40,463 bases of DNA. Origin: Desulfoluna sp. (GTDB lineage: Bacteria > Desulfobacterota > Desulfobacteria > Desulfobacterales > Desulfolunaceae). This document shows positions 3,452 to 40,463 of the stretch, in pieces. The position numbers and the translations under genes are program-made. Numbering within the stretch: position 1 is the stretch's first letter; the number at the start of each line of letters is the position of its first letter. The stretch covers positions 1 through 40,463 of the forward strand of contig NZ_JAQYWB010000052.1 of NCBI RefSeq assembly GCF_030145185.1, given 5' to 3'. Below the pieces are notes generated by a model, which did no database searches, was not told the DNA's origin, and saw only the letters and a list, made by a program, of their open reading frames with translations.

Positions 3452-3656
3452 TAAAAACGACAGCTGTTCCAGCCTGCACCGTCGCAAGATGCGAATTTAC
3501 CGCTAAACCGGTATGGTTTTTATCACATTCTTTCCCTTTTATTGTTGGCTATTATCCAATATCTCCTCAATATTTTAGCCCTTATTCTAAACGATACCAA
3601 TGCTTTATATACAGTGACTATGGCCTCCTTCTCCATCAAAACAAGGGTAAATAACT

Positions 3657-4873: not shown

Positions 4874-4910
4874 ACGTTCATCATGTTTATGGTATAGCCC
4901 TGTTATGCCT

Positions 4911-5053
4911 TAGCCCGGATATTTCATGAGAAAACGACCAATCTATAGAGATAAAACATTATTACAGACGGTTACATGGAAAAAAATCGGTTATTTCAAA
5001 AATGCAAAATGTAATTCACCGTTTTCGGCTCGCTTTTCTCACCCTTCGGGTTA
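4911..5053 (+). repeat. MITE-like palindromic element, family A copy 1
   Basis: About 143 bp. It begins TAGCCCGGATATTTCATGAG and ends CTTTTCTCACCCTTCGGGTTA; the two ends are imperfect inverted repeats (TARCCCG...GAGAAAA). The internal block GTTATTTCAAAAATGCAAAA recurs in copies at 21012-21123 and, inverted, at 36393-36535. It has no coding capacity. Size, ends and dispersion suggest a miniature non-autonomous element. Confidence 0.7.
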
Positions 5054-5170
5054 GATATAATCAAAATCTTCTTCGGCATCAAACCATTTGCCACGTCCCA
5101 GATGAAGCAGGCAGCAGAGACAGCCCATGATGACATAGGCAAGCACAAATTGAGAGGTGGGGAAGAAACC
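5051..5170 (-). pseudogene. Relic of an NCS2 permease 3' end
   Basis: The minus strand encodes the last ~39 residues of a permease almost identical to the complete one at 12604-14160 (GFFPTSQFV-AYVIMGCLC-LLHLGRGKWFDAEEDF). Differences are conservative (VIAY to VLAY, CYLL to CCLL, EYV to DYI). Similarity stops abruptly near 5170, where the fragment at 5171-5274 begins. On the other side the stop codon coincides with the end of the family A element. No start or membrane body remains, so this is the leftover of a duplicated gene. Confidence 0.85.
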
Positions 5171-14188: not shown

Positions 14189-15934
14189 TTATGCTTCAAT
14201 GGGCATAAAATCAAAACGGGTCACATCAAACAATCCCATATCGGTCAGTTTGATTTCCGGGATGACAGCAAGGGACATAAAACACAGGGTCATCACCGGC
14301 TCAACATCACCGTTTACTGACAAGACCTCGTGGGCTTTTTCATGAATGGCGGTGAGGCGTTCATCCACCCACTCTCCACTTTGATCGCTCATAAGGCCTG
14401 CAATGGGCATGGGCATGCATTCGACAACCTCACCGTTATTTGCCAGGAGAATACCGCCCCCCTGGGCAATCAGGGACTCCACGGCAAAGGCCATGTCCTC
14501 ATCGTTAACCCCGACAACAATGATGTTGTGGGAGTCGTGGGCCACGGAAAGGGCAATCGCCCCCTGCTTGATGCCATAGCCCTGAAGAAGAGCCACGGCC
14601 ACATTGCCGGTGTTCTGGTGGCGCTCTACCACAGCCACCTTCACCACATCCTGATTTTCGTTGTAGAGGAATTCATTTTTGCTGTTGCGGGTAACCTCGA
14701 CAATGCCTTTTTCTGTCACCACGCCGCCGGGCAGAATGTTGATCACATGTGCCTTCTCGGAGTTGATCACGAGGGTTAACTTCTCTTTGGAGAAGTCCTT
14801 TACTTTGAAGCGACCCTTGGTTGCAGAAATATCATGGCGCTGTACCTCCGGCAGATACCTGCCGCTGTCCCCTGCCAGCACGCCATCGATCCATACCTTT
14901 TGTACGGTAAAATCCGACAGACTATCAAAGAGAACGATGTCGGCTTTCAAACCCGGAGCAATGGCACCACGGTCGGTGAGCCCATAACATTCCGCAGCAT
15001 TCAGGGTGGCCATCTGGATGGCCATGATCGGGTCGATGGCTTCTTCTGCACAGATGCGCAGGTGGTTATCGATGTGACCGATGCTGAGAAGGGTCTTGGG
15101 CTGGCAGTCATCCGCGCAGAACAGGCAACGCCGGCTGTTGGCAGGGGTTACCCCCTTCAAAAGATCTTTGAGGTTATGGCAGGCGGAGCCCTGACGCAGG
15201 AGCACGTACATGCCGCAAGAGATACGGTGCTGCATCTCATCCACGGTGGAGCATTCATGGTCGGTGCGGATGCGGGCGGCAGCATAGGCGTTCAGGGCAT
15301 TGCCGGAAACGCCGGGGCTGTGTCCGTCAATGGGTTTGCCTGCGTTTCTTGCCACCAGCAGTTTATCAAGGGAATCATCCAGCCCATTGATGACGCCGGG
15401 AAAATTCATGAACTCGCCAAGGCCCATGACCTCATCGCGCTTCATGGGATCTTCCATGGATTTCGCATCAAGGGTGCAACCGGAATGCTCAAAAGGCGTT
15501 GCCGGCACGCAGGATGGCATCATCATCTGCACATCAAGGGCGGTGAGTTTTGATGCCGCGATCATGTAATCCAGCCCTTTAAGGCCGCATACATTGGCGA
15601 TCTCGTGGGGGTCGGCAACAAGGGTGGTCGTCCCGTGGGGGACCACCAGACGGCCAAGCTCCTCCGGGCTGACATAGGAGGATTCGATATGAATATGGCT
15701 GTCGATGAAACCGGGGGCCGCATACTGGCCCATGGCGTCCACCTCGTTGGCCGCGGAGTAATCCCCAACACCGGCAATCAGACCGTCCACCACGGCGATA
15801 TCACCCTCGGTGATTTTGCCGTTATGCACATCCACCACCCTGGCATGCTTGATGACCAGATCGGCCTGGACACGGCCTGCCGCCACATCGATCAGTTTTT
15901 TCAGTGCTCTTTTTTTCAGCTCTGGCTTTTTCAT
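14189..15934 (-). CDS. ade: Adenine deaminase
   Basis: 581 residues, full length for the COG1001 amidohydrolase family, which converts adenine to hypoxanthine and ammonia in the cytoplasm using a metal centre. All landmarks are present: FIDSHIHIES with His80 and His82, PHGTTTLVADPHEIANV (99-115) with DPHE, the conserved Glu in GLGEFMNFPG (Glu174), DGHSPG (His205), TDHECS, and FCADD (Asp275/276). The C-terminal domain with HDSHNIIVVG and the ALLQGYGIKQGA region is also typical. It is the second gene of a three-gene operon, 11 bases after the divergent paralogue and 28 before the permease, with a GGGGAGGAG site before the ATG. Together with the permease it supports purine salvage or use of adenine as a nitrogen source. 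Confidence 0.95.
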   Translation of the reverse strand: MKKPELKKRALKKLIDVAAGRVQADLVIKHARVVDVHNGKITEGDIAVVDGLIAGVGDYSAANEVDAMGQYAAPGFIDSHIHIESSYVSPEELGRLVVPHGTTTLVADPHEIANVCGLKGLDYMIAASKLTALDVQMMMPSCVPATPFEHSGCTLDAKSMEDPMKRDEVMGLGEFMNFPGVINGLDDSLDKLLVARNAGKPIDGHSPGVSGNALNAYAAARIRTDHECSTVDEMQHRISCGMYVLLRQGSACHNLKDLLKGVTPANSRRCLFCADDCQPKTLLSIGHIDNHLRICAEEAIDPIMAIQMATLNAAECYGLTDRGAIAPGLKADIVLFDSLSDFTVQKVWIDGVLAGDSGRYLPEVQRHDISATKGRFKVKDFSKEKLTLVINSEKAHVINILPGGVVTEKGIVEVTRNSKNEFLYNENQDVVKVAVVERHQNTGNVAVALLQGYGIKQGAIALSVAHDSHNIIVVGVNDEDMAFAVESLIAQGGGILLANNGEVVECMPMPIAGLMSDQSGEWVDERLTAIHEKAHEVLSVNGDVEPVMTLCFMSLAVIPEIKLTDMGLFDVTRFDFMPIEA

Positions 15935-15945
15935 GGTCTCCTCCC

Positions 15946-17730
15946 CTACTTCTCTGGATTCAAACCAAGAATCGGATCAAAGGTTTTAAGGGCGATACAG
16001 TCCACAGGCCCCACATCCGTGATGGCATAATCGGGAATCGCGGTGATGGGCAAAAAGAACATGTACATCAGTGGCTCAGGAAGATCACAGCCAAGGCCAT
16101 GTGCCGCCTTGTTCAGCAGAGTTTCCTGATATGCAATCTCCTTGGCGTCCAGATCACTGGCAATGCCGCCCACAGGGAGGGCAAGGAACTCTATAATTTT
16201 GCCGTCTGCCACAATAACCTGGCCACCGCCATTTTCGATCAGGTGGTTGACGGCAATGGACATGTCCTTAGCATCGGCACCCATCACAACGATGTTGTTA
16301 TCGTCCGGAGCTGCTGAAGAGGCCATGGCTCCTTTTTTCAGCTTCCAACCAGAGCAAAAGGCTAAGGATTTATTCCCATTGCGGCCAAACCGCTCAACCA
16401 CAGAGACCATCAGGACATCCAGATCGATATCTGGCTGAACGATATTATTCTCCACCTTCAGGGTCACATCACGACGCTTGCGAACAAAGGGGCCCACCAC
16501 ATTCATGGAGAGGACCTCGGCGGTGCCTTTTTCCATCTCCACACGGTACTGAAAGTCTGCCTGGGTGGTTTTTTCGCATTTAAGTTCGCTCGAAAGCACA
16601 GCACTGCGCTTGGGCGCGTTCAGCTCATAGGTCAGCGCCCTGCCCTTTGCCACCAGCTTTCCGCCTGTGATGACCGCCTCGACGTTGAAGGTTTCCGGGC
16701 TGTCCACCAGAAGGATGTCCGCGATTTTACCCGGAGTAATGGAGCCCACGAGGTGGTCAATACGATAGGCCTCGGCGCTGTTGATGGACCCCATCTGAAT
16801 GGCGGTCATGGGCTCAACCCCTGCCTTCATGGCAAGGCGAACCACATGGTCCATGTGACCTTTTTCGATGATATCTGTTGCGGTGACATCATCGGTACAG
16901 AAGCTCACCCTGCGGGCAAGTGCCGGGTTGACTTCGGTCACGGCGCGGATATTTTCTTCCAGAAAATGGGTCACAGAAGACTCCCGAACCAGCATATGCA
17001 TGCCGTTTCGCATCTTCTCAACCACCTCTTCATGGTCATAGCTCTCATGGTCAAGACGAACACCGGCACAGAGATAGCCGTTCAGCTCTTTCCCGCGTGC
17101 CATGGGCGCACAGCCGAAAATCGGCAGCCTGTTGGCATGGGCTTCAGCCAGGGCACCCAAGGTATCATCGTCTTCTTCTATAACGGCTTCACGAACGGTT
17201 TCCCACACGCCGAAACACTCAGGCCACTGTTGAACCTCTTTGTGGGTTTCCGGGGTAAAGTTGTAGGATACGGTGGATGTGGGGAAGGTATACGGGGTCT
17301 TGTAAGGCGCTCCCCAGAACACTTTCAAGGGGCTCTTCTTGATTTCTGCAAAGACCTCCTGCAGACCTTCAATGCCCGATACAGAGATATACTCGTCAAG
17401 ACCGGAAACAATACAGGTGGTGCCACAAGGGACAACCGCCTTTGCAAAACTTGTGATACTTAATTTACTGCATTCACTGTGCAGGTGCCCGTCGATGAGC
17501 CCTGGTACCAGGAATTTGCCGGTGGCATCGATGATCTCGGTTTCTTCGCCGATATAGTCTTTCACATCACCGATGGCGACAATGATGTCGTCATAGATGG
17601 CGACATCTGCCAGATAGATTTCGCTGGACATGACATTGACCAGGTGACCACCCTGTACAATCCTGTGCGCTGGAACAAGGCCTCTCCCGGCACGAATGCG
17701 TCGTTTCAGCCTATCTTTACCCTTTTGCAT
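15946..17730 (-). CDS. Divergent adenine-deaminase paralogue (amidohydrolase)
   Basis: 594 residues, same two-domain layout as ade. The metal-binding His82/His84 (LIDGHLHSE), LDHES, FCTDD (Asp280/281) and the C-terminal APDDNNIVVMG block remain. Two hallmark positions of true adenine deaminases have changed. PHGTTTLVADPHE is here PCGTTCIVSGLDE, losing the His of DPHE, and the His of DGHSPG is a Cys (Cys207 in FGCAPM). The substrate is therefore probably not plain adenine, or the metal centre differs. The family includes members that are annotated as adenine deaminase but act poorly on adenine. It is the first gene of the operon, with a strong AGGAGG ribosome site four bases before the ATG. 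Confidence 0.85.
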   Translation of the reverse strand: MQKGKDRLKRRIRAGRGLVPAHRIVQGGHLVNVMSSEIYLADVAIYDDIIVAIGDVKDYIGEETEIIDATGKFLVPGLIDGHLHSECSKLSITSFAKAVVPCGTTCIVSGLDEYISVSGIEGLQEVFAEIKKSPLKVFWGAPYKTPYTFPTSTVSYNFTPETHKEVQQWPECFGVWETVREAVIEEDDDTLGALAEAHANRLPIFGCAPMARGKELNGYLCAGVRLDHESYDHEEVVEKMRNGMHMLVRESSVTHFLEENIRAVTEVNPALARRVSFCTDDVTATDIIEKGHMDHVVRLAMKAGVEPMTAIQMGSINSAEAYRIDHLVGSITPGKIADILLVDSPETFNVEAVITGGKLVAKGRALTYELNAPKRSAVLSSELKCEKTTQADFQYRVEMEKGTAEVLSMNVVGPFVRKRRDVTLKVENNIVQPDIDLDVLMVSVVERFGRNGNKSLAFCSGWKLKKGAMASSAAPDDNNIVVMGADAKDMSIAVNHLIENGGGQVIVADGKIIEFLALPVGGIASDLDAKEIAYQETLLNKAAHGLGCDLPEPLMYMFFLPITAIPDYAITDVGPVDCIALKTFDPILGLNPEK

Positions 17731-18480: not shown

Positions 18481-18707
18481 TGGAGGTAAACCACTACATC
18501 TGCAGCTCTGGTGTCTTGAATATGAATGCACTCGACTCGTGAAATATCCGGGCTACGGGCCGACGCAAAAATAAAACATACAAAAAGCGATGCCACCGGC
18601 GGCAAGGGGAGCCACCTCGATAGCACTTTCCGCAGCGATTTAACCCTTGTTCCTCGGGTTAAAGCACATACGCATTTGGGACAACATAGATCTTAAATAT
18701 ATAATTA

Positions 18708-20254: not shown

Positions 20255-21242
20255 ATGATTTTAGGACAACTTTATCTTTACCGACGAAGACACAAAACCG
20301 TCTGCACACCTGAGAGACAGCTGGCTCCCCCAAACCGGATTTCTCCAATTTCTTTCAGTGTCGCTTCGGAGTATCGCTTCATGAGATACATTTTCATCTT
20401 ACGGGCTAACTCTTTCGCTACCTCATCAACGGCACGTGGAATGGTCTCAAACGATGGGAGGCTCTCAAGGGCTCGAAAAGCCGGCAATTCACGATCACTG
20501 CGCCGTCCTTCAAAAATACCTTTAATAAAAGACTCCTATCCCCAAATGGCCTTCGCCGCCTTTTTCAGAGGACTCGGATCATGCAGCCGATTTTTGTCTG
20601 AGACAAACCTCTCATACTCTCTCCGGGCCTGTGAGATCCGTTTACCGAAACAGCCATAAATATAGCCTTTTTCCAGTGAATTTGAGGCCTGAAATCTTTC
20701 GATATACGGCCCCATATATGTCGACCAGACATGCCCTTCTGCAACCTCAACTATGGCGGCCCTTAAAGTGTATAAATGAATGTATCGTGACAACTCCAGC
20801 GCATGATCGTCCTTGAAAACCAGATACGCATTGTCGCGTCCTTGAAATCGGTGGACAAACCGTTTCCTTTTGACATTGAAATACATGGTGTAGGATCTGT
20901 TGATACGCTCATGATCCATCAGGAGGCTCAATGATAAAATGGTGGCGGTTGGTCAACAGGCAATAAGCATGAATGATCGCGCCATAGCATTCATCCGTCT
21001 CGTCAGGAGACTATCCCGAATATTTCATGAGAAAACGATCGACCCAAAGCAACGAGCAGTTATTTCAAAAATACAAAATGTAATTTACGGTTATCTGTTC
21101 GCTTTTCTCACCCTTCGGGCGAGCCGGGATAGAGGAATTTCTTCTGGTCGCGTTTGCACTTATGAATGTTCTTTCGCTCGTTTCCTCGGGATGTCACATG
21201 GTAAAACACCTCGGGAAACTTTATCCGTAAGGGTCGTGCCTT
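20255..21242 (-). pseudogene. REP-associated tyrosine transposase (RAYT), broken
   Basis: Read across three frames, the minus strand encodes a nearly complete RAYT. It has N-terminal ARPLRIKFPEVFYHVTSRGN, then IIHAYCLLTNRHHFIIE-PPDG (the HUH region, normally TNHYHLL), YFNVKRKRFVHRFQGR, ELSRYIHL--LRAAIVE (catalytic Tyr block, normally YIHLNPVRA), FGKRISQARREYERF, ESFIKGIFEGRRSDRELPAF and the C-terminal KRYSEATLKEIGE...AVSQVCRRF helix-turn-helix. Lesions are an AAG where the initiator Met is expected (21240-21242), insertion of a family A element (21012-21123), and frameshifts near 20910, 20535 and 20370. RAYTs are single-strand nucleases that mobilise REP palindromes. This one is dead. Confidence 0.9.
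21012..21123 (+). repeat. MITE-like element, family A copy 2, inside the RAYT gene
   Basis: A shorter copy (about 112 bp). The left end TATCCCGAATATTTCATGAG, the block GTTATTTCAAAAATACAAAA and the right end CTTTTCTCACCCTTCGGGC match copy 1 at 4911-5053. RAYT codons lie on both sides, which marks it as an insertion. Confidence 0.75.
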
Positions 21243-27710: not shown

Positions 27711-27855
27711 GTCTCCTGGTCTCTGGCCTTATCGTTTCACGCATCCCGACACCATGGACTTCCATGAAACCCGGTAACGATTAGTCGCAGGGTCACTATT
27801 AAAAAAGCCCCGAACAGGTCATTCTGTTCGGGGCTTTTTTAATGATGAGAAATGA
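27711..27855. repeat. Family D dispersed module, copy 2, with terminator 27799-27842
   Basis: Matches 18337-18480 over about 140 bases and contains the identical 19-bp-stem hairpin (27799-27817 with 27824-27842). On the minus strand it lies 29 bases after the stop of the second caspase gene and is its intrinsic terminator. Confidence 0.88.
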
Positions 27856-27870
27856 GGGGACGAGACCCTG

Positions 27871-30800
27871 CTAGTGGGAAAGAAGTATGGGGAAATCCTG
27901 CCCCCGCCCGTAAATGCTGGGGTATTGCGCATTGCCGCGATGGGTTTCGGTGAGTCCCGGCACTTTATCTTCTATAAACGCCGACAACTCACGCACGGTT
28001 GTCTTGCCGTCTTTTGGGCTGCCGTCCGCTTCACCCTGCAGGCCTTTTAAGAGAGCATAGGTGAAGACACCATGTTTTAAACTGGCAAATTCCGTTGCGA
28101 ACTGCTCGGACTGTGTGGCTGCCAGAAGGTAAATCCCGCTCGACCGACTAAGCTGCTTCAGGGCTTTTTCCTCAACGGCACCACGCATGGCAAAGGTCTG
28201 CTCAAAACCACCCGCCTGGCATGCATCCATGATCAGCATCTGCTTTCTGGCTTTGATCTTTTTCGAATATCCGGTAAGTTGCTCAGCCGATATTCCGTTT
28301 GCCCAGATATGTTGTTCCCGGTACAGGGAGGTCACTTCATGGGGCGCAATATAAAAATGTGGTGTTCCTTTTTCATTCTCCACCATGACACCATGGCCTG
28401 CATAATAGAGCACGAACACATCTTTCGGTTTTGCAGACGTAACGACGTTATCAAGTGCCCGGCTTATATTGTTTTTTGTTGCCTTCTTGTCGAACAGTTC
28501 AGTGACATGCAGGGTTTTAAAAAGTTTTTTGGATCTCATTCGAAAAACTGCACTGATAGCTTCAGCATCTGCCCTGCCGTAATTCAAGTTGTATTTTGTA
28601 TTTTTATATTTGTTAATGCCCACGATGACAAAATAGGCATCCGGCTTTTCAAACTCGGGATTTTTATATAAAACAGACGCGTTAAACGGCCTTGATTCAA
28701 TGCCGGTTTTGCTTTTTGCAACCGCCATAAAGGTGTTTTCACCATCAAGCAGTGTTACCGGAAAGGCAACGGTCTGCGACCTGCTGTCAGTACGGCTGAC
28801 TTTTTTGAGCCCACGCTGTTTTCCCTCAACAGGTTTTCCGTTATGAAACAGGGTAATCTCCTGGATCCCCCCACCGTTATTTTTAACGTTTAAAACAACC
28901 TCCAGGGTGGCCTTCGTGCTGGTGGCAATATCTTTCCCTCCGTATGTCAGTGCTTCGGGAGAAAGAATGGTAACTGTCGGCGGAGGCGACTCCATCATGA
29001 TGTCGATTGTTTTTCCGGCGACCATTTTTGGGGCGCCGCCTGTTTTCAATACCTGGTCCATTAAGCCCGGAATATAAAAAAGATCAAAAAGCTGATCCAG
29101 CTCCAGCACGTTCAGCCCTTTGACAACGTGAACCCCCTCAAAGCCAGGCGATTTATCATAATGACCGGAAGGTGTCACAACCAGCCATTCTCTGTTGCCT
29201 TTCGCGTTCTTCTTTTCGCTTTCCATTTTGGAACAGATCAGCTTCCCTGTCTCCACATTCCAGTAGCGGGTCATCCCGTCAGCACCGGTAGAGATGGCTC
29301 GTCTGCCGTTTTCAGTAAATTTTAAGGTGTAAACTCGCCCGTTGTGCCCGTCAAAGGCCTTGACAAGCTTATTGGTATAGACATTCCATAGCCCAATACC
29401 CCCAAGGCCCGAATTGACATTACCACTGATAACAAATTTACCGTCCGGAGAAAAATCGAAAATAGTGCCATTGCAATGAATGAAATCCGATACCGTTCGA
29501 TTGTTAATATCTATTCGTTTCATGCCACCATGTGAAGATACAAAAAGATAGTCGCCATTTTTGGAAAATTCCATTTGGGTCACTAAAGGTATCTTTACGG
29601 ATAAAATAATTTTACCCCCTCTGGAGACATTCACATGGTGTTTGGAATAATGCCCATCTACAAAACCTTCTGCAATTAAAAGCTGATCTGAGCCATGAAA
29701 AAATCCACAGTCCCTTCTGCTTGCACCTTTTCTGATGGCATCTTCAGTGATTCCACCAGAGGTGCCAGCCGAGCTGTTTTTAAATTTTAAGGCTAATTTT
29801 TTATTATCAATAGTCCATGTGGTTATCTCGCCACTATCTATAACGGTATACTGTTTTCCGTCGGGGGAAAGATCGAATTCACGACCCCCTGTTTTACCGA
29901 CGATAGACTCTGACATCCCGTTTGCCAAATTTATTTTATCAAAATAACTACCACATAGAAAAAGAGAATGACCGTCAGGTGAAAACTTAACTTGAGAAAC
30001 ATTGCGACCCATTTTTTGGGAAAGGACCTTTGCCCCTGTTTTAAGATTCCAAACACTGATGTTGCCACCTCGAAATCCCCCGGCAGCAAACTGACTGTCC
30101 GGGGAAAAAGCGACACTTTCCGCATCGTCTGGACCACTCATCGTGCTTAAGAGCGAACCCGTCTGCGCATCCCAGAGTTGCATGTAGGTGCCAAAGATGT
30201 CACAGCCTGACAGAATAAGTTTCCCGTTTGGAGAGAATTTAACACTACCGATGGCATTTGTAATACCTTCCATGGAAAGGACCTCTTTGCCACTGGAAAT
30301 ATCCCAAACCTTTAAAGGGTAATAAGAGATATAATCTCCAACCGACGCGCACCCTCCGGCAACCACTCTTTTTCCGTCAGGAGAATAATCAACACACCTT
30401 GCCCAGAGATAGTCTTTTTTGTATTCAGGGGCAAATAAAGGGTCAAGAGAAAAGGATTTAAGAAGGGTCCCGGTGATAATGTCCCATATTTTTATCTGGC
30501 CATCGCCGCCTGCAGTCACTATGTATTTTCCGTCAGGTGAAAAAGAAACATCATTGATCTCTTTGTCCTTGCCACGTTTCACCTTATTTTCGAAATCTTG
30601 CAGAAGATTTCCACTTTCAGCATCCCATATTTTTATCAGGCCATCTTCTGAGCAGGTGACAATAAGCTCCCCGTCCGGCGAGTATTCTAAAGCGGTTGCA
30701 CGCGTTCCAATACTGCCCGTATGAAGTTGCTGAATGACAAGCGTTGCTTTTATCTTTTTATGCAGGTCGACGGTCTGTTTCTTAAAGACGTCTGTTGATT

Positions 30801-30909
30801 TAATCTTTTCTGCCTGAAGGTAATAATCAGGCACGGGAACCGTTGGCAAGCCACAGCCCGTTAGTGTGAAAAATAACAGAGCCACAGCAATTACCCTAAA
30901 ATACCTCAT
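27871..30909 (-). CDS. WD40-repeat / caspase-like (peptidase C14) lipoprotein
   Basis: 1012 residues from ATG 30909, which has a GGAGGGGG site. The frame stays open 80 codons upstream, but the true start opens the signal peptide MRYFRVIAVALLFFTLTGC, with lipobox LTGC and lipid Cys19. Residues about 65-560 contain many WD40-type repeats (FSPDGK, GGDGQIKIWD, YSPDGKRVVAGG, FSPNGKLILSGC, TGADGMTRYW). A linker (SGHYDKSP; LFDLFYIPGLMDQVL) and a beta-rich segment (about 640-745, NNGGGIQEITLFHNGK) lead to a C14 domain (about 755-1005). Its dyad is intact: His839 in YYAGHGV and Cys897 in MDACQAGG. I expect a periplasm- or surface-exposed outer-membrane lipoprotein protease, with the propeller binding partners. 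It is the last gene of the omptin-caspase cassette and is followed by a strong terminator. Confidence 0.93.
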   Translation of the reverse strand: MRYFRVIAVALLFFTLTGCGLPTVPVPDYYLQAEKIKSTDVFKKQTVDLHKKIKATLVIQQLHTGSIGTRATALEYSPDGELIVTCSEDGLIKIWDAESGNLLQDFENKVKRGKDKEINDVSFSPDGKYIVTAGGDGQIKIWDIITGTLLKSFSLDPLFAPEYKKDYLWARCVDYSPDGKRVVAGGCASVGDYISYYPLKVWDISSGKEVLSMEGITNAIGSVKFSPNGKLILSGCDIFGTYMQLWDAQTGSLLSTMSGPDDAESVAFSPDSQFAAGGFRGGNISVWNLKTGAKVLSQKMGRNVSQVKFSPDGHSLFLCGSYFDKINLANGMSESIVGKTGGREFDLSPDGKQYTVIDSGEITTWTIDNKKLALKFKNSSAGTSGGITEDAIRKGASRRDCGFFHGSDQLLIAEGFVDGHYSKHHVNVSRGGKIILSVKIPLVTQMEFSKNGDYLFVSSHGGMKRIDINNRTVSDFIHCNGTIFDFSPDGKFVISGNVNSGLGGIGLWNVYTNKLVKAFDGHNGRVYTLKFTENGRRAISTGADGMTRYWNVETGKLICSKMESEKKNAKGNREWLVVTPSGHYDKSPGFEGVHVVKGLNVLELDQLFDLFYIPGLMDQVLKTGGAPKMVAGKTIDIMMESPPPTVTILSPEALTYGGKDIATSTKATLEVVLNVKNNGGGIQEITLFHNGKPVEGKQRGLKKVSRTDSRSQTVAFPVTLLDGENTFMAVAKSKTGIESRPFNASVLYKNPEFEKPDAYFVIVGINKYKNTKYNLNYGRADAEAISAVFRMRSKKLFKTLHVTELFDKKATKNNISRALDNVVTSAKPKDVFVLYYAGHGVMVENEKGTPHFYIAPHEVTSLYREQHIWANGISAEQLTGYSKKIKARKQMLIMDACQAGGFEQTFAMRGAVEEKALKQLSRSSGIYLLAATQSEQFATEFASLKHGVFTYALLKGLQGEADGSPKDGKTTVRELSAFIEDKVPGLTETHRGNAQYPSIYGRGQDFPILLSH

Positions 30910-31117
30910 ACATTTCCCCCTCCTTAAAAAACGGATGCAATCGATTTCATATCCAATCTGAATGACGTTCTTACCGGCCATAAGGTTGAAACTGTTTTCT
31001 GAATACGCCATTAGCCCGGATATTTCTCGAGATGAGTGCCTCACTGCCGGTATACGAAGACTATCTTGCCATGAATTCCAATAGGGATGAACGTATGGCG
31101 CCAAGGGATTCAGGCCA

Positions 31118-34100
31118 CTATTTTTTGATGATATGAAAATCATCACCAAAGTGATGGCTTACAGCCTGCTGCCTGCCATGAGAAAACTGGTTCGTCTTTT
31201 TTTTCGCATAGTCGGCCAGTTCAACGATGCTTAAAAATCCGTCGCTGTTTATATCGGAATCCGAAAAATGGCGGTATCCTTCCAGCAACGCATGCGTAAA
31301 CAACCCGTTGTCATGGTAGTTGTCAAGAGCGTCCTGATAGGTTGACGAGCCTGCAATGACGTGTATACCGGTGGAGTAGGCAAAGGTTTCGGTTTGAATG
31401 TTGTAGACATCAGCCATGGCAAGGTTCAGTCCACCGGCCCGGCACGTGTCTAAAATCAACAATTGATGTTGCGCCGGGTTTTTTGCATGCATCGCCATCA
31501 ATTCATCATAAAGGATGGTATTGGCGTGGGTGGCTTCACCATCGTAATCGTGGGTATACAACCTGAATTGCTTGTTGTTGATCGCTTCAGCGTGCGTCGC
31601 AAAATAGATGACAAAATAGTCTTCCGGGTTCATCTGTTCGGCCAGGCGATTGAAGGCGTTTATAATCGTCTCTTTTTGAGCGTTGGCGTTGTTCAATACA
31701 AGGGTTTCGCCAATCCTGAAAGCGGCATGTTTCCGTAAAAGGGCTTCAACATCGTTTGAATCTTTGACCGCATTTTTAAGGGTCGCATTGGGTTCTTTAA
31801 ATTGATCAATACCGATGGATAACACGAAGAGCCTCGGCCGGGATTTGTTTTTTCCGCCCTTTACAACACGATCTACAGGCGAGGATAACACGGTCCCTGC
31901 ACCGTTAAAGCCCTGAACGACGATCTGGTTGTTACCGGACGCCAACGGCACGGTGACGCTGAGTGGGTTCGGGATTTTTATGCTGGAAGCGGGAGCCTTC
32001 CCGGTTTTTCCAGCCCCTTTTAATGTGAGACCTCGATGGGCGTTTGCCTGAGCCACAACCTTTGGTGAAGCCGTGTCTTTTGGTTCATTTAACCGAAAAT
32101 GACCCTGATAGCTGTAAACAAATTTCCCGTTGTTTTTCACCCTGATATCGCCGATCCCTCCCCCGGAATTGTTGGCCCGAATTTTAAGCGTTGCCTGGTG
32201 GCGGTTTTTTGAACGTTTCACCGAAAAGTTTACCTCAGGCGGGGGAAGCAGCAGGGAGTCTTTCAGATTAACGAGGCGTACATCCTGTTCATAAGGGCCT
32301 TTATTTAAGACATTTTTAACGATATCAGGGCGAAAAAAAAGCTCGTACAATTGATTGTACGAGTACCACACCCGCTTTTCAGGTATGGAGAAGTGGATGA
32401 AATCCCCGGGATTTCCAATAAAATCAAAATACCCGTCCGGAGTCGAAAAGATAACACCGGAATTATTCCCTTGCTGATAATTAATGTATCCGCTCAAAAG
32501 GGGCTCGTGACTGTCACCAGAAAGGATATTGATTGATTGATCAAAACCGATTGTGATCCAATACCCATCCGAGGAGGTGACATGAGCAATGTGGTTTCCA
32601 TTTGATTCATGGGTGGAAATTTCGTTCCCATTCTTCAGGGAAACAATTTTTAGGGATTTGTGGACCATGGCAAGCTCCTGCGTTTTTGTGTTCAACGCAA
32701 GATCTCTGATAAAGGGCATATCCACTTTGATGTCACGTGATGAGCCCTTCTCAAGGTCGACCAAATGAACACGCCCATATCGGGTTCCCGCCGCGAAAAG
32801 GCTCTCATCTTCAGAAAAAGCAAAACATGGGGGACGAAAATCCCAGCTTGTATCTTCTTTTTCATCCACAAGGGTCGCAACCCGTTTTTTGCTTTTCAGG
32901 TCGACGATGCTTAAGGTCGGATACGAATGAATTCCGGACGTATGAAACAGGGAAGATAAAAAATCTTCTTCTATGTATACGCCAAAAATGACCAGGTAAC
33001 GGCCACTTCTGGATAAAGCCAGCCGGTAATCATCATCAAAAATACCTCCCTTTTCATTGTACCCCGGTAAGGGGAGCTTGAGCCCTGTCGGTCGCCCCAA
33101 ATGCCCCGGTAAATAATGGCGAATCGTGCGGCGTTCATAGTCATATGCGCCCGTCTTTCCATCCAGAAGGCGACTGTCTTTCCCCACAAAAGACGGTGGC
33201 TTCTTTTTTGGGGTTTGATTGGGGGCATTAAAATCGGTGAGGGTTTCGATGGATCCATTTTCGGTTAAGACCGTGAGGATACCTTCCGAATATCTGAAGT
33301 CTTTTATGTTGTCCCGGGAACATGTTTTTACGGATCTTTTTTTGAGGTTCACATCCATGAAATGGATACTGGAATTTTTGCCTCGCTTGTATAAGACAAA
33401 ACGCCCCTCTTTGACATGTGAAAAAACAACCCCGGTTTGATCGTAAACTGTAAATTGATCCTGGGGAAAAGCCGGCGGGGTATTAAACACCCGTTTGCCG
33501 GTTAAGGGGTTACTGGAAATCAACGCCCTGCTGTTTGTGATGATCGTTCCATTTGCGTAGAACAAGGCATTGATTGAATCATTATGCCTGTTGGGCAAGG
33601 TACGAAGGAGGCGCCCGGTTTTGAGCTCAAAGACACCTATTGTGTTGGTCACGTTTCCATTTTGAGGTGCCGCTGCTTTGCCCGTTTGAGCCGCAAACAA
33701 GGCATTGTTAATGAAGACGGGATCCGGCACGGTATGAACCATGCGGCAATCTTTTTTTTCAAAAGCCGTTTCCTTCATGACATATTCATCTTTTCGAACC
33801 TCTTTTAAACCGGGCATCTGATACAAATAGGAACGACCGGTTGTTTGATTCTCATCACCGGCGGTGACAACAATCAAACGCTCGGGCGTCAAGCTGACGA
33901 TGCTTTCGATATCATTTGAAAAACTAGTGAGTCGTTTTCTCTTTTTTAATGCGGGGTCATACGCGTATAGGTGCGATCCATATCCGATAAGCAGGGTCCC
34001 GTCATTTAAAAATTCTACGGCATTGGGAACAAATGGCCTGGATGATGCGTATCGTTCCAAAGCCGGGCAAATATGAAGAATATCCAAGGTATTGACGTCA

Positions 34101-34651
34101 CGTATCTCTACAAACGGGTAGTAGTCAGATTTGCTGCCAAGCCTTGACTCCGTAATCATCCCTCCCTTCCGGAAATAGGCCCCTTTAAAAAGCGCAACCT
34201 GTGTCCGGTCTCGGTTAAGGGTTGCTTTGAAGAAAGAGTATTTGTTTTTTTTGTCGTAGAGTATGTGTCCGGTACGGACATTAAAGACCAGGAGCCTGTC
34301 TGTTGCCGAGATCAGTAAGGTGTCTTTCTTGATCTCCAATAATGTCAGGATGGTATTTTTTATGGGGAGGTTGAGGGTCTGCAACAACCTGCCAGAGGCG
34401 GTGTCCCGGAGCAGTATCGTGCGGCCATCCCCAGAGACCATATAAAATATTTTTTTATCGATACTTAACTCGGAGGCGTTGCTGCCAAAATCAACGCCAC
34501 TGTTGATTTGAAAAACCGGCAGGGCCATTTCCAGGCGGCCATTTTTTATTGATTTTTCTGATGTTTCAATGTGCACGGTTTGCAGGTTGGCACATGCGGA
34601 TAAAACCAAACATAATCCCAAAAGAAACAATGCCCGATACCTGGTGGTCAT
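31118..34651 (-). CDS. Beta-propeller-like / caspase-like (C14) lipoprotein with EF-hand loop
   Basis: 1177 residues. The signal peptide has lipobox LSAC (lipid Cys20). Residues about 50-800 are a divergent propeller-like repeat region (SGDGRTILLRDTASGRLLQT, GVFELKTGRLLRTLP, AAGTRYGRVHLVDLEKG). A segment with LYELFFRPDIVKNVL and NNSGGGIGDIRVKNNGK resembles the linker of the downstream paralogue. The C14 domain (940-1177) has Cys1070 in LDTCRAGG and His1020 in YFATHAE, where the usual GHG is THA. A canonical EF-hand loop (1133-1144, DINSDGFLSIVE) lies near the C-terminus, so calcium may regulate it. A GGAG ribosome site precedes the ATG. It lies 92 bases after the omptin gene and 208 before the second caspase gene. 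Confidence 0.9.
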   Translation of the reverse strand: MTTRYRALFLLGLCLVLSACANLQTVHIETSEKSIKNGRLEMALPVFQINSGVDFGSNASELSIDKKIFYMVSGDGRTILLRDTASGRLLQTLNLPIKNTILTLLEIKKDTLLISATDRLLVFNVRTGHILYDKKNKYSFFKATLNRDRTQVALFKGAYFRKGGMITESRLGSKSDYYPFVEIRDVNTLDILHICPALERYASSRPFVPNAVEFLNDGTLLIGYGSHLYAYDPALKKRKRLTSFSNDIESIVSLTPERLIVVTAGDENQTTGRSYLYQMPGLKEVRKDEYVMKETAFEKKDCRMVHTVPDPVFINNALFAAQTGKAAAPQNGNVTNTIGVFELKTGRLLRTLPNRHNDSINALFYANGTIITNSRALISSNPLTGKRVFNTPPAFPQDQFTVYDQTGVVFSHVKEGRFVLYKRGKNSSIHFMDVNLKKRSVKTCSRDNIKDFRYSEGILTVLTENGSIETLTDFNAPNQTPKKKPPSFVGKDSRLLDGKTGAYDYERRTIRHYLPGHLGRPTGLKLPLPGYNEKGGIFDDDYRLALSRSGRYLVIFGVYIEEDFLSSLFHTSGIHSYPTLSIVDLKSKKRVATLVDEKEDTSWDFRPPCFAFSEDESLFAAGTRYGRVHLVDLEKGSSRDIKVDMPFIRDLALNTKTQELAMVHKSLKIVSLKNGNEISTHESNGNHIAHVTSSDGYWITIGFDQSINILSGDSHEPLLSGYINYQQGNNSGVIFSTPDGYFDFIGNPGDFIHFSIPEKRVWYSYNQLYELFFRPDIVKNVLNKGPYEQDVRLVNLKDSLLLPPPEVNFSVKRSKNRHQATLKIRANNSGGGIGDIRVKNNGKFVYSYQGHFRLNEPKDTASPKVVAQANAHRGLTLKGAGKTGKAPASSIKIPNPLSVTVPLASGNNQIVVQGFNGAGTVLSSPVDRVVKGGKNKSRPRLFVLSIGIDQFKEPNATLKNAVKDSNDVEALLRKHAAFRIGETLVLNNANAQKETIINAFNRLAEQMNPEDYFVIYFATHAEAINNKQFRLYTHDYDGEATHANTILYDELMAMHAKNPAQHQLLILDTCRAGGLNLAMADVYNIQTETFAYSTGIHVIAGSSTYQDALDNYHDNGLFTHALLEGYRHFSDSDINSDGFLSIVELADYAKKKTNQFSHGRQQAVSHHFGDDFHIIKK

Positions 34652-34743
34652 AAGTGCTCCGCTATGTGTAAAAAGATGACTTTCATCTGTGCCTTACGAC
34701 ATCCCCTACTGCCATTACCATCGGTCTCCGCCGGGCGGTTGGA

Positions 34744-35844
34744 TCAAAATCCGTACACCAGGGAGACAGACCCCATCCAGGAACTGTGTTGCAACCCGGC
34801 TTGGTCGGGGAAGCGGAAGGTTCCTTCAGCGATTGCCACGGAGATGTCCCCCGTGGTTCGGCTGTATTTGAGAATCCTCAGGTTGGAGGAAAGGGCAAGG
34901 TGGGTCGTGAGGGGATACGAGAGCCCGAGGGCGACCATCTGGTAGCGGATGTTGTCAAAGGTCTCTTGAGAGACCATACCGCGAAGAAGATGATGGTCTT
35001 CGTCTTTGGCCCATGCCCAGTTGCTTTTCGCGAAGCTGCCGGTCAGGGTCAGGTCGCGGACCTTGAGGTGGGCGCAAAATCCAAGGTAAGGTGCATACAT
35101 CCATTGCTCGAATGCGATCCCCGGAATGTTTTCAAAGTTGCCGTGTTGATCGCGAAACCCTTCCGGGGACGAATAGATGAACGTCCCGCCGTGATCCTCC
35201 CAGCCCCAATGGTCGTATCGAAAACCCACCAGTCCGGACATCCCCCAGGTCTCTTGTTTAAAAAAAGGGATGCGGAGCTGCACGTCGGCCATCTCTCCGT
35301 CGGTCAGGACGGTGGGGCTGACCGAATAATCTGACCAATCTGTGGGGTGTTGTTCCGACAACCAATCGTAGTCATCACCGAGGGAGGAAGCTCGCCCGAC
35401 GCGAGACCATGCGGAGAGGGACAGCGTGGCTTCATAAGGCAAGGGAATCGAGGCGGACAGGCCGACCACGGGAACATTTTCAAGGCGCCAAATCAACTCG
35501 CTGACTTTTTCCCCGACATCACCATAGACGATCTCATGGGACTCCCCGTTAACAATTCCCGCGTTGAGGCTCATGGAAAGGGAATGGTGTGACGAGGAGA
35601 ACCATTCAACACGTTGGGTGGGGCTTACGGCTGCTGCAACCGCCTGGCATGGCAAGTTCAGCGTTCCTGCCAAGATCAGGAACAGGGCCACGCCGGTTAT
35701 GCGCCTCGGCATCATGGGGGTGTTGGAAAAAAGAAAACCTACCGGCGAACATTCCCGCAGACATGACAAAAATGCATTATGACATTTCTTTATTTTTGAC
35801 AGGTGTGGCTGGAATTGAGTTGGATTGCGATGGGTTGTCTCCAT
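34744..35844 (-). CDS. Omptin-family outer-membrane protease
   Basis: 366 residues. After a signal peptide (about 46-72, GVALFLILAGTLNLPCQAVA) comes a ten-strand-type barrel like OmpT/Pla. Clear matches are SLNAGIVNGESHEIVY, GEKVSELIWRL, GGTFIYSSPEGFRD, APYLGF and the terminal aromatic SLVYGF. The four omptin catalytic positions are present: Asp158 and Asp160 in DDYDWL (OmpT D83/D85) and Asp283 and His285 in DEDHH (OmpT D210/H212). Omptins cut surface-accessible proteins and peptides, usually near basic residues. The start at 35844 is supported by a ribosome site (35856-35861) and a promoter just upstream, but gives 43 extra residues before the signal peptide. ATGs at 35715 and 35712 are alternatives without a ribosome site. 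It is the first gene of the cassette with two caspase lipoproteins. Confidence 0.92.
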   Translation of the reverse strand: METTHRNPTQFQPHLSKIKKCHNAFLSCLRECSPVGFLFSNTPMMPRRITGVALFLILAGTLNLPCQAVAAAVSPTQRVEWFSSSHHSLSMSLNAGIVNGESHEIVYGDVGEKVSELIWRLENVPVVGLSASIPLPYEATLSLSAWSRVGRASSLGDDYDWLSEQHPTDWSDYSVSPTVLTDGEMADVQLRIPFFKQETWGMSGLVGFRYDHWGWEDHGGTFIYSSPEGFRDQHGNFENIPGIAFEQWMYAPYLGFCAHLKVRDLTLTGSFAKSNWAWAKDEDHHLLRGMVSQETFDNIRYQMVALGLSYPLTTHLALSSNLRILKYSRTTGDISVAIAEGTFRFPDQAGLQHSSWMGSVSLVYGF

Positions 35845-35855
35845 ATCTCTGAGAT

Positions 35856-35881
35856 CTCCTTACACATTATGGAGTATAGCA
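35856..35881 (-). promoter_or_regulatory. Extended -10 promoter and ribosome site of the omptin gene
   Basis: On the minus strand, TGCTATACT (35873-35881) is an extended -10 element with no good -35. AAGGAG (35856-35861) lies 11 bases before ATG 35844. The predicted transcript start, about 35866, gives a very short leader and favours the 35844 start. Confidence 0.5.
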
Positions 35882-36365: not shown

Positions 36366-36392
36366 TGGCTACGTTATTCAATGTTCGTTCCT

Positions 36393-36535
36393 TAGCCCGA
36401 AGGGTTAGAAAATCGAGCCAAAAAATGTGGGTTACATTTTGTATTATTGAAATATCTGCACTTTTTATAATAACTTACTGTAATAAATACTTATTGCATT
36501 GGCATGATCGCTTTCTCATGAAATATCCGGGTTAG
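36393..36535 (-). repeat. MITE-like element, family A copy 3 (inverted)
   Basis: About 143 bp in the opposite orientation to copy 1. The plus strand reads TTAGCCCGAAGGGTTAGAAA, then GTTACATTTTGTATTATTGA, and ends TCATGAAATATCCGGGTTA. Length and order of blocks match copy 1. Confidence 0.7.
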
Positions 36536-36661
36536 ACCTCTTCTATTCCGACAGGCGCCCTTTGCCATGTATACCCTGAGGAATCATCCCCCATTTTGGG
36601 TGGTTTTCCCCCAAAATATCCCAAGGCCTTCAATGACCAGTGTTTTGAAAACAATCAAACA

Positions 36662-36690: not shown

Positions 36691-37254
36691 CTCCGGCTTC
36701 TTGACTCTCAGCGTTTTTCTTTTGTCTCCATAAAATACCTCATAAGAACGGACATATACCGCATTTGTGGCACGCTTTATCTGTTTATGGCACAAATGAT
36801 GCTTTGAAAAATGCGCAAGATTCATCGATATGGGCCCAGGCAGTGACTCATTTGTACATCCTGCGACGGCTGGCTCCACATCAAATCCGGCGTAAATGAG
36901 CGCTGTAGCACATCTGCGCCAAGCCGATGATCACCTTACATTGGCACCATTCATTTTATAGGGCGGTTGCCCTTGCCTCACCTGAGATTCTAACGAAACC
37001 GGGCCTCCCCTACCCGGGTAATGACGACACCATTGCCAGTGACAACCGACACCACAGACACGATGCAATGCGATCCTTTTATGAACCCTGCGCAGCCATA
37101 AGGCGTGACGTAAGAAACAGAGCCACACCTGAAAAATCTATTCGTTCCGGTGTTTAAACGGCGACGCTCACCTGATACCGCTGGCCAGCGAAAACGCTGC
37201 AAAAGGCTGGAGAATAAACCTGCCCTACATGGAATTATGATGGAAGGAGATGTC

Positions 37255-39006
37255 ATGAAAGTAAACAGCAGCAACTCGCCCACGATCCCGTCACGGGTCA
37301 TGGAAACGCTCACCCAGAAAATCATCCACCTCATCTTTGTGGTTTCGCTCTATTTATCAGGGGGGGTGCTGTATCGCAGGTTAAAGAAAAAAAGCAAGCA
37401 CCCCATGGTGCATCAGAAAAAACTTCTCAGGCAAATCCTCCGGAAAAATCGGAACACGCAATTTGGGATGGACCACAATTTTCGCCACATCCAATCCATT
37501 CAGGATTTCCGACAACAGGTTCCCGTCCAAACCTGGGACACCATAGCGCCCTATGTCAAACACCATACAAGCGGCGGAAGCAATGCCCTTGTGCCCGGGA
37601 AGCCCGTTTCCTATGCCGCCACAAGCGGTACAACGGGCAGCCCCAAATACATCCCCATCACCAGCGAGATCATGAAGAAGTCCCACATCAACACCGGCAG
37701 GATCTTTACCTACAAGACCCACAAAGACTACCCGGAGTTGAAAAATGGCAAGATTCTCGCCGTGGTTTCACCTGCTGAAGAGGGTGTCGTGGAAGACGGA
37801 ACGCCTTACGGTTCCACATCAGGTCACCTGGTGAAAGGACTGCCCTCTGTGATTCGGCATAAATACCCGGTGCCCTATGAGATCTTCGCCATCAAAGATT
37901 ACAGCTCGAAATATTATGCCATTCTCAGGTGCTCCCTGGACCAGGATATCACCATGATCAATTCAGCCAACGCGAGCACCCTTGTCCTCCTCGCAAAAAA
38001 AGCCGATGAATGGAAAGATCGTCTGATCCGCGATATTCGATCGGGAACCCTCTGCGAGACCCTTACCCTTGACGAAAAGACAAGAACCCTTGTTGAAAAA
38101 CGACTCACCCCCCGGCCCAACCTGGCAGAGAGATTGGAACGGCTCATCAGGGAAGAGCCGGACAACCGCCTGCTGCCGAAGCACTACTGGCCGAGCCTGT
38201 TCCTGGCCGGATGCTGGACAGGGGGCAACTCCAGCATCTACCTTCAGGAGATGAAAGCCTGGTACGGTGAGATCACCATCCGAGACATCGGATACCTCGC
38301 CTCTGAAGTGCGGGGATCCATTCCCCTCTGGCGCGATTCCAATGCCGGAATCCTGACCTTCGATCAGAATTTTTTCGAGTTTGTCCCCCTCACCGATGAT
38401 GGCAGCCAGCCTGACGTCCTCACCCTGGACCAGTTGAAACAGGGCGAACAATATGACATCCTCGTTACCACCTTGGCCGGTCTCTACCGATACCGCATCA
38501 ACGACATCATCGAAGTGACGGGCTTCTACGAAAAGGTCCCCACCATACGCTTTGTTCAAAAAGGAAGCGGGGTCACCAGCATCACCGGCGAAAAACTCTA
38601 CGAGCAGCAGCTTATCGACGCCGTGGAAAAAACCAAAGCGACCCTCGGCGTCAAAACCACCTTCTACATGGGCCTGGCCCATGTAGAAAAAAGCCGCTAC
38701 GTACTCTATATCGAGTTTTCGCCCTCTCCCCCTGAAAACGCCAAAACCAAATTCACGGCCTTGCTTGATGAAAACCTCAAGGAGGTCAATATGGAATACC
38801 GAGTCAAACGGGACTCCATGCGGCTGCACCCCGTGGAGCTGCGGGAACTGGCGAGTGGGGCCTACGAAAAAATGAGACTCGAAAAAATCAGCCAGGGGTG
38901 CCGCGAAGCTCAGTTCAAACCCACCCTGCTCACCCAGGACATAACCATGATCGAAAGCTTTGAGGTCATTCGGGTGATCCAACCGGACTATCAGAAAGCG
39001 AGCTAA
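37255..39006 (+). CDS. GH3-family acyl-adenylating/amidating enzyme
   Basis: 583 residues from ATG 37255, preceded by an AAGGAG site. The open frame to 37150 upstream looks non-coding. The protein belongs to the GH3 branch of the ANL adenylating superfamily. Landmarks are ATP motif 1 SGTTGSPKYIP (124-134), motif 2 GYLASEVRGSIP (346-357) and motif 3 YRYRINDIIEVTGF (411-424). Plant GH3 proteins couple carboxylic acids such as jasmonate or auxin to amino acids through an acyl-AMP. Bacterial members have largely unknown substrates. Unusually there is a hydrophobic segment at residues 23-40 followed by RRLKKKSK, suggesting membrane anchoring. It is followed after 15 bases by the truncated alpha/beta hydrolase gene, so a biosynthesis/hydrolysis pair acting on a lipid or amide is a reasonable guess. 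Confidence 0.9.
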   Translation: MKVNSSNSPTIPSRVMETLTQKIIHLIFVVSLYLSGGVLYRRLKKKSKHPMVHQKKLLRQILRKNRNTQFGMDHNFRHIQSIQDFRQQVPVQTWDTIAPYVKHHTSGGSNALVPGKPVSYAATSGTTGSPKYIPITSEIMKKSHINTGRIFTYKTHKDYPELKNGKILAVVSPAEEGVVEDGTPYGSTSGHLVKGLPSVIRHKYPVPYEIFAIKDYSSKYYAILRCSLDQDITMINSANASTLVLLAKKADEWKDRLIRDIRSGTLCETLTLDEKTRTLVEKRLTPRPNLAERLERLIREEPDNRLLPKHYWPSLFLAGCWTGGNSSIYLQEMKAWYGEITIRDIGYLASEVRGSIPLWRDSNAGILTFDQNFFEFVPLTDDGSQPDVLTLDQLKQGEQYDILVTTLAGLYRYRINDIIEVTGFYEKVPTIRFVQKGSGVTSITGEKLYEQQLIDAVEKTKATLGVKTTFYMGLAHVEKSRYVLYIEFSPSPPENAKTKFTALLDENLKEVNMEYRVKRDSMRLHPVELRELASGAYEKMRLEKISQGCREAQFKPTLLTQDITMIESFEVIRVIQPDYQKAS

Positions 39007-39805: not shown

Positions 39806-40463
39806 TCAAGCCTCTCTCAATCGTTTCATGGAGTACATGCCGTCAAAGCCGTTGACCCGCTTTGGCACGCGTTCCCGGCTCCCATAAAGCCGATCCTTAA
39901 AGATTTCATAGGTTCCGATAACAAAAGACTTGGAGCCGATAATTCCCGAGTCGGTAAAATACCGGGTTCGGGACCTGAACTGCCGGATGCGATCCAGCTC
40001 AAAATTTTTCTCCTTTTCTGACTGAAACACCCGCGCCACAATCGCGGCCTTGCCCCGTTTTTTAACCGACCCCGCATGATAGAGAAATTCACGGTATTTT
40101 TGCAGTCGTTCAGCGCTCTCCACCCCGAACTCCACCAGCCCGAAGTCCAGGGAGAGAAAATCATCTCGGTTTCCCGTCTGCACATGGTGCCCGATGGAGC
40201 ACCAGCGGTAGTCCTCCGGCCGCTTTACAATACCCGCCCTCACAGCGTTTAAATCTATATAGGCCAAGCAGTTAATAACTGTCTCACCTTTCTCTACTAT
40301 CACGCTTTTAAACCGCTCGCCCCAGAGGGTCCCCCGGCGATTCTTTTTCCGGTTATAGATCCGTGAAAAGGTCTGCTTGATATCCTTTACATACCAGGAC
40401 AAGCTTGAAAACCGTTCTCGGTAGTGCTCCAGTTGGCCTTCAGGGAACTCCGTGCCTTTTGTG
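39806..40463 (-). CDS. REP-associated tyrosine transposase (IS200-like Y1), 5' end outside window
   Basis: The frame is open to the right edge (219 codons seen) and ends at TGA 39806. A TTG at 40402 could look like a start, but coding continues upstream (GQLEHYRERFSSLSWYVKD), so the N-terminus with the HUH motif lies outside. Visible landmarks are WYVKDIKQTFSRIYN, GTLWGERFKSVIVE, the catalytic tyrosine block CLAYIDLNAVRAGIV-RPEDYRW and the C-terminal RTRYFTDSGIIGS with FDGMYSMKR. RAYTs are domesticated IS200/IS605-type nucleases that act on REP hairpins. It has no disabling mutation in the visible part. It belongs to a different subgroup from the broken RAYT at 20255-21242. The neighbouring family C repeat is a candidate substrate. 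Confidence 0.9.
   Translation of the reverse strand, partial: TKGTEFPEGQLEHYRERFSSLSWYVKDIKQTFSRIYNRKKNRRGTLWGERFKSVIVEKGETVINCLAYIDLNAVRAGIVKRPEDYRWCSIGHHVQTGNRDDFLSLDFGLVEFGVESAERLQKYREFLYHAGSVKKRGKAAIVARVFQSEKEKNFELDRIRQFRSRTRYFTDSGIIGSKSFVIGTYEIFKDRLYGSRERVPKRVNGFDGMYSMKRLREA

Follow-up and report, generated by a model that had tools for sequence, protein, structure and literature searches.

Two probably exported propeller-caspase lipoproteins beside an omptin gene in Desulfoluna: members of a widespread family with apparently exchanged modules

Positions 1 to 40,463 of contig NZ_JAQYWB010000052.1 from Desulfoluna sp. (assembly GCF_030145185.1) were analysed and are called the window here. 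Between 27871 and 35881, it carries three co-oriented open reading frames (ORFs) on the minus strand, namely the omptin gene P0003 (34744-35844) followed by P0002 (31118-34651) and P0001 (27871-30909), which both encode lipoproteins with a peptidase C14 (caspase) domain. The gaps between them measure 92 nt (omptin-P0002) and 208 nt (P0002-P0001). The original prediction regarded this set as an envelope protease cassette. While its gene content, coordinates and domains were recovered, the window is probably better explained by a lone omptin of incidental position and by two members of a widespread exported propeller-C14 family with exchanged modules.

Both lipoproteins matched the C14 profile (PF00656) over the cut-off, P0001 with an E-value of 6.9e-21 and P0002 with 6.9e-14, and the His/Cys dyad is intact in both (AGHG/DACQAGG and ATHA/DTCRAGG). 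In P0001, a lipobox is followed by one or more WD40 propellers (residues about 60-590, 29140-30732), a linker with an Ig-like part and the C14 end (residues 756-1012, 27874-28644). The propeller is clear with 149.7 bits on PF00400 (cut-off 27). P0002 consists of a lipobox, a propeller-like part and a C14 domain at residues 943-1130 (31262-31825); its propeller matches in Pfam stayed below the cut-off, and a blade profile scored 22.9 bits compared to 2.2 at most in 50 shuffled sequences. The lipoboxes, LTGC-G and LSAC-A, were called with a scripted PROSITE-like heuristic and not with a trained predictor. As predicted, Asp is absent from their +2 positions, which are occupied by Gly and Ala. The rule that lipoproteins without Asp at +2 are sorted to the outer membrane is enterobacterial and may not hold for Desulfobacterota. 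Export and lipid anchoring of P0001 and P0002 are supported by these sequence features, and the proteins probably sit in the outer membrane facing the periplasm.

C14 genes were found in 109 out of 194 genomes of the order and relatives of P0002 in 65 out of 395 genomes of the phylum, own genome included in both; the own genome has six C14 genes. Twenty relative loci were fetched: 19 of them (L135-L153, from 16 genomes) were picked from the top of the P0002 match list and one belongs to the same genus. A C14 profile built from loci of this genome and of the same family found C14 in all phylum loci L135-L153; its recovery of the window genes is no independent test. Among fetched C14 homologues of at least 400 amino acids, 24 out of 30 carried an export signal by the heuristic (4 lipobox, 20 Sec-like) compared to 77 out of 350 other ORFs of the same length. 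Five of the six C14 proteins of the genome have a lipobox according to the script, and in the sixth one it is readable by eye with a later start. His and Cys were present in 38 of 40 aligned C14 ORFs. Of the exceptions, a gapped row forms, with one of the 38, the two pieces of a split gene at L147, and one protein has Tyr-Cys. A long propeller-C14 ORF at L153 (11223-15464) with Tyr at the position of the catalytic His may be an inactive partner beside an intact one. Of the 20 relative loci, 6 contained at least two long C14 ORFs, a count that is biased upward as the closeness of two C14 matches had been the reason to pick some of L135-L153; one locus has four, overlapping by 18 bases. Judged from these sequences, exported propeller-C14 proteins are common and widespread in Desulfobacterota.

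When the neighbours of the P0002 family were clustered, DUF4384 proteins, exported CHAT-TPR proteins and shadow ORFs were obtained. None of the window genes fell into these clusters except for the ORF at 3651-4760, which belongs to a small group, and no fixed partner of the family could be established by this clustering. Within the loci L135, L137, L140, L141, L147 and L153, DUF4384 proteins are recurrent neighbours of exported C14 genes, and exported CHAT-TPR proteins adjoin the C14 genes of genome G361. The DUF4384 proteins tested against Pfam comprised three of 290-323 amino acids and one OmpA-TPR protein. Neither type was seen beside P0001 or P0002. It is possible that these proteins and the exported C14 proteins form a conserved envelope protease neighbourhood.

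The modules of this family seem to be exchanged between paralogues. The C14 domain of P0001 is 91% identical to that of a paralogue on contig C136, compared to about 50% for the propeller. For the whole part before C14, global alignment gave about 50-54%, and BLAST gave 37% with the repeats out of register. The C136 copy is 125 amino acids longer and differs in blade number. At four-fold degenerate sites, 28 of 112 differ in C14 and 104 of 168 at residues 31-740 (p 1.3e-9); here the linker/Ig part, which has no repeats, has diverged as far as the propeller. The similarity stops at the stop codon, and the first 24 residues are close again (88%). A pair in genome G361 shares 90.7% DNA identity over 1260 bp at its C-terminal end only; its propellers are 19-39% identical per block of 60 residues and gave no DNA match. 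The reverse was observed for a co-oriented pair in genome G336 lying 3.1 kb apart, with 90.8% identity over 1984 bp in the propeller and only 22-37% amino acid identity per block in the protease ends. Thus, the same protease occurs with different propellers in two genomes, including the one of P0001, and the same propeller with different protease ends in one. The comparison of pairs within and across genomes covered 34 members of at least 600 amino acids with C14 starting after residue 300. Among recent paralogue sets, three out of four were mosaic and the fourth (L152) showed a mild trend with the protease end more alike (p 0.002-0.046).

The omptin P0003 matched the Pfam Omptin family (PF01278) at 34747-35586 with an E-value of 4.7e-43 and 147.7 bits, over the curated cut-off and along positions 3-283 of the 283 in the profile, and it matched solved omptins at 1.4e-27. 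D158, D160, D283 and H285 align with the positions that we take to be catalytic from the residue numbering of solved omptins, and they are invariant in the close relatives aligned; all four predicted catalytic residues are thereby accounted for. P0003 resembles the omptins OmpT, Pla and Kop in these respects and differs in being only about 24-35% identical to the relatives compared, and in belonging to a host family whose seven other genomes have no omptin. A ten-stranded barrel in the outer membrane, dependence on lipopolysaccharide and cleavage at dibasic sites would be further traits of the omptin family. The start codon of P0003 is uncertain: AAGGAG lies upstream of the ATG at 35844, yet the stretch resembling a signal sequence starts only about 44 residues further on. 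Omptin active sites face the outside of the cell and lipopolysaccharide is thought to be required, as far as the available text of PMC7356225 states.

Omptin matches were obtained in 36 out of 395 genomes of the phylum sample (one with two places) and in 21 out of 389 genomes of the class sample, own genome included in both. A first scan of the GTDB contig collection with P0003 alone as query returned no relative. In total, 56 places besides the own one were examined with 831,593 bases, namely 36 from the phylum sample, 18 from the class sample, two of which are below the curated cut-off, and 2 from the contig collection. The distance from the omptin to the first C14 domain downstream is 2.9-3.5 kb in the window, and at least 3.7 kb of downstream sequence was required to show one; this was available at 41 of the 56 places. 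At least 5 kb was present on both sides of 25 places and on at least one side of 53. Eleven were close omptins (phmmer E <1e-25 against P0003), ten of them with at least 3.7 kb downstream, and many others were remote members. A C14 profile search of the available flanks found a C14 gene beside none of the 56. Within the host family, an omptin was detected in none of the 7 other genomes (1 of 8 counting the own one). No omptin was detected in G002 of the same genus, whose genome encodes a lipoprotein resembling P0002 at 29% identity across the last 413 residues. For a comparison with an empty site, the flanking metallo-beta-lactamase gene had no close counterpart in the 7 other family genomes (0/7), and the flanking GH3 gene gave only distant matches in 2 of them, so that no orthologous site could be named. 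As far as searched, co-occurrence is not conserved in relatives, and an omptin-caspase cassette is not supported in the family, phylum and class samples or in the contig collection. The link of the omptin to the caspases is probably incidental. P0003, as part of the same favoured explanation, is best seen as a lone and sporadically distributed protease of the outer membrane whose active site is exposed to the exterior.

The sequence between the genes also bears on this. About 100 bases before the starts of P0001 and its C136 paralogue are alike (30910-31011 in the window, minus strand), and no omptin or P0002 lies beside the C136 copy. As this 5' region is shared in the absence of the other two genes, it probably contains a promoter of its own, by which P0001 would be expressed independently. 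Where the likeness stops, an exact copy of the terminal sequence of a dispersed repeat is located (31012-31026, minus strand); the end pattern derived from this repeat had 4 matches in the window and 0 in 100 shuffles. A repeat end at the P0002/P0001 junction fits, and does not prove, a joining by rearrangement. The 111-nt leader of P0001 showed no structure beyond shuffles (z 1.18), and neither did the 92-nt gap between omptin and P0002 (z 0.44). The strong terminator predicted after the last gene was confirmed as a bidirectional hairpin flanked on either side by A/T tracts (27798-27843, -31.7 kcal/mol, z -9.3); a pattern scan for terminators missed it, probably since its stem extends into the A/T tracts. 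On the other hand, the promoter said to be readable before the omptin was not recovered: the scan found no sigma-70-like site of at least 9/12 near the omptin start on its own strand. The nearest sites lie at 36287-36251, about 410 nt upstream, and the scanned region contained 17 such sites compared to 10.3 (sd 3.4) in shuffles, none of them useful.

Several observations weigh against the favoured explanation. The propeller of P0002 is weak by sequence, and a two-sequence AlphaFold model reached a pLDDT of only 29.9 and was discarded. Six of the 30 homologues failed the home-made export rule, which is not a trained predictor, and 15 of the 56 omptin places end at contig ends with less than 3.7 kb downstream. 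Read-through from the omptin into P0002 is possible as the genes are 92 nt apart without a strong hairpin between them. Of 30 pairs within one genome, 23 of which could be aligned in both halves, only 3 were strong mosaics, and the breakpoints were picked after looking. In addition, C14 also changes slowly between species: a gap of at least 40 points was present in 4 of 456 cross-genome pairs, and one cross-species pair also contrasts at four-fold sites (p 0.002). Part of the contrast between C14 and propeller may therefore be constraint. Taken to its end, this would mean that the mosaics reflect nothing but uneven constraint, with C14 and its codons changing slowly and the propeller quickly by blade duplication, in agreement with the greater conservation of C14 in cross-species pairs and the blade numbers of P0001 and its C136 paralogue. 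Such an account is improbable, given the sharp four-fold change at the domain border, the equally diverged linker/Ig part that has no repeats, and the DNA similarity of the G361 pair at one end only. Slow C14 evolution cannot explain G336 either, because in this reversed case it is the propeller that is conserved and the protease end that differs.

The arrangement as one operon of three genes, in which one envelope protease processes another, draws on the co-orientation, the gaps of 92 and 208 nt, the terminator behind the last gene and the position of two C14 genes, out of six in the genome, beside its only omptin. It is very improbable in view of the 56 other omptin places, the seven relatives without omptin and the 5' region that P0001 has in common with a paralogue next to which neither of the other two genes lies. 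The GC content at third codon positions (GC3) differs as well (omptin 0.649, P0001 0.459, P0002 0.515). The default orientation of outer-membrane lipoproteins is towards the periplasm. For a cascade, the caspases would have to be exposed at the surface since omptin sites face the outside, and the outward active sites, as given in the available text of PMC7356225, thus speak against the proposed cascade, for which no evidence was found. A smaller and younger unit would comprise omptin and P0002, co-transcribed in this strain only and maybe with a recent joint role, and leave P0001 separate. The gap without a hairpin beyond shuffles and the repeat end that parts P0002 from P0001 suit it; the genus member with a P0002-like gene and no omptin and the different GC3 values of omptin and P0002 do not, and nothing positive was found for a joint function. 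We consider this unit unlikely. In this strain, omptin and P0002 may share one message. Finally, the caspases could be secreted or surface effectors against other cells or phages, their exchange mirroring that of polymorphic toxins. Module exchange and tandem arrays speak for it, and extracellular or fratricidal roles are proposed in the accessible part of PMC3501461. The lipid anchor of P0001 and P0002 argues against it, and a search of a defence library gave only generic caspase and HEAT models (immunity genes and a secretion system were not searched), so that this role appears doubtful. On the same library result, membership in a defence system was rejected.

Prokaryotic WD40-metacaspases or orthocaspases likewise join a C14 p20 domain with a His-Cys dyad to WD40 repeats, which are clear in P0001 and below the Pfam cut-off in P0002. 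P0001 and P0002 differ from them in that the propeller precedes C14, a lipobox is present and modules are apparently exchanged between paralogues; there was also no NACHT domain among the Pfam matches listed (best 25 of 43 for P0001, 3 of 3 for P0002). The NCBIfam model NF047832 (caspase, EACC1-associated type) matched P0001 and P0002 with 85.4 and 62.3 bits, which is below its cut-off of 140, and by that score they are not members. As in the highly repetitive prokaryotic WD40 proteins of PMC5587647 and PMC9218822, repeat number varies between paralogues; in contrast to these, P0001-type propellers are fused to an exported protease, and the available parts of both papers do not describe exported C14 fusions. 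Caspase-WD40 proteins had been said to be usually discussed as cytoplasmic. In the 2012 metacaspase survey, as far as its accessible text goes, localisation was undetermined for 529 out of 671 sequences, a helix that is maybe a signal peptide was present at the N-terminus of most of the 98 sequences assigned to membranes, extracellular roles were discussed and WD40 was the commonest partner domain (10.9%) (PMC3501461). The survey does not present them as usually cytoplasmic, and export as such is not new, judging by that text. The literature searched, with subscription papers mostly outside it, contained no description of lipid-anchored, module-exchanging C14 members and no pairing of an omptin with a metacaspase. 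No paper was found on a peptidase C14 caspase with periplasm and propeller. By title and abstract, nothing relevant was found on omptins in Desulfo- bacteria and only PMC3501461 on metacaspase lipoproteins in them.

The dispersed repeat mentioned above is about 140-180 bases long with partly inverted ends. Its copies in the window lie at 36390-36545 (also delimited as 36392-36557; upstream of the omptin), 4899-5055, 20998-21137 and 18536-18559. For the full repeat, 43 matches were listed genome-wide (377 first-look candidates, 40 scored), with up to five long copies in one 20-kb locus of this genome. Related ORFs are present at 39806-40462 of the window, at L107 84-713 and at L109 3300-4226. 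The L109 ORF, the longest of the three, matched the Y1_Tnp transposase family (PF01797, 1.4e-7), and the other two had no Pfam match. The right end of the window probably contains a cut or decayed transposase copy, which is perhaps linked to the repeat. An lgt gene for prolipoprotein diacylglyceryl transferase (PF01790, 5.4e-69; L107 3626-4465) adjoins the lipoprotein caspase of C136 in divergent orientation. Elsewhere in the window, a GH3-family gene lies at 37150-39006, with a second copy on C150 of the same genome G000 (308-2158, 91% identity, two in-frame TGA), and two adjacent adenine-deaminase-like genes (PF13382 and PF01979) at 14189-17730. A contig of Desulfogranum japonicum contains two adjacent omptin-like ORFs (L112 8466-10951).

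In the proposed mechanism, recognition is most likely the task of the beta-propeller, C14 would deliver the output, and the lipid would keep the protein in the envelope. On binding a ligand or a misassembled envelope protein, the propeller would free the His/Cys protease or bring it into position. Cleavage may then take place after a basic residue by analogy with characterised orthocaspases, which cut after Arg or Lys according to the available part of PMC6426788. Recombination between paralogues would provide one protease with new sensors, and one sensor with new proteases, for a putative surveillance of the envelope. The omptin would act by itself, its substrates by analogy being peptides at the cell surface, and recognising its link as probably incidental averts a false cascade model. 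Bacterial caspase relatives are mostly discussed through cell death and immunity, and their location is mostly undetermined. More tentatively, Desulfobacterota may possess modular, lipid-anchored or secreted envelope caspases in which propeller and C14 are reshuffled and which diversify like immune receptors or polymorphic effectors. If true, a largely exported and partly lipid-anchored family present across the phylum, with intact dyads, tandem arrays and exchange of halves, would move one branch of the caspases to the envelope.

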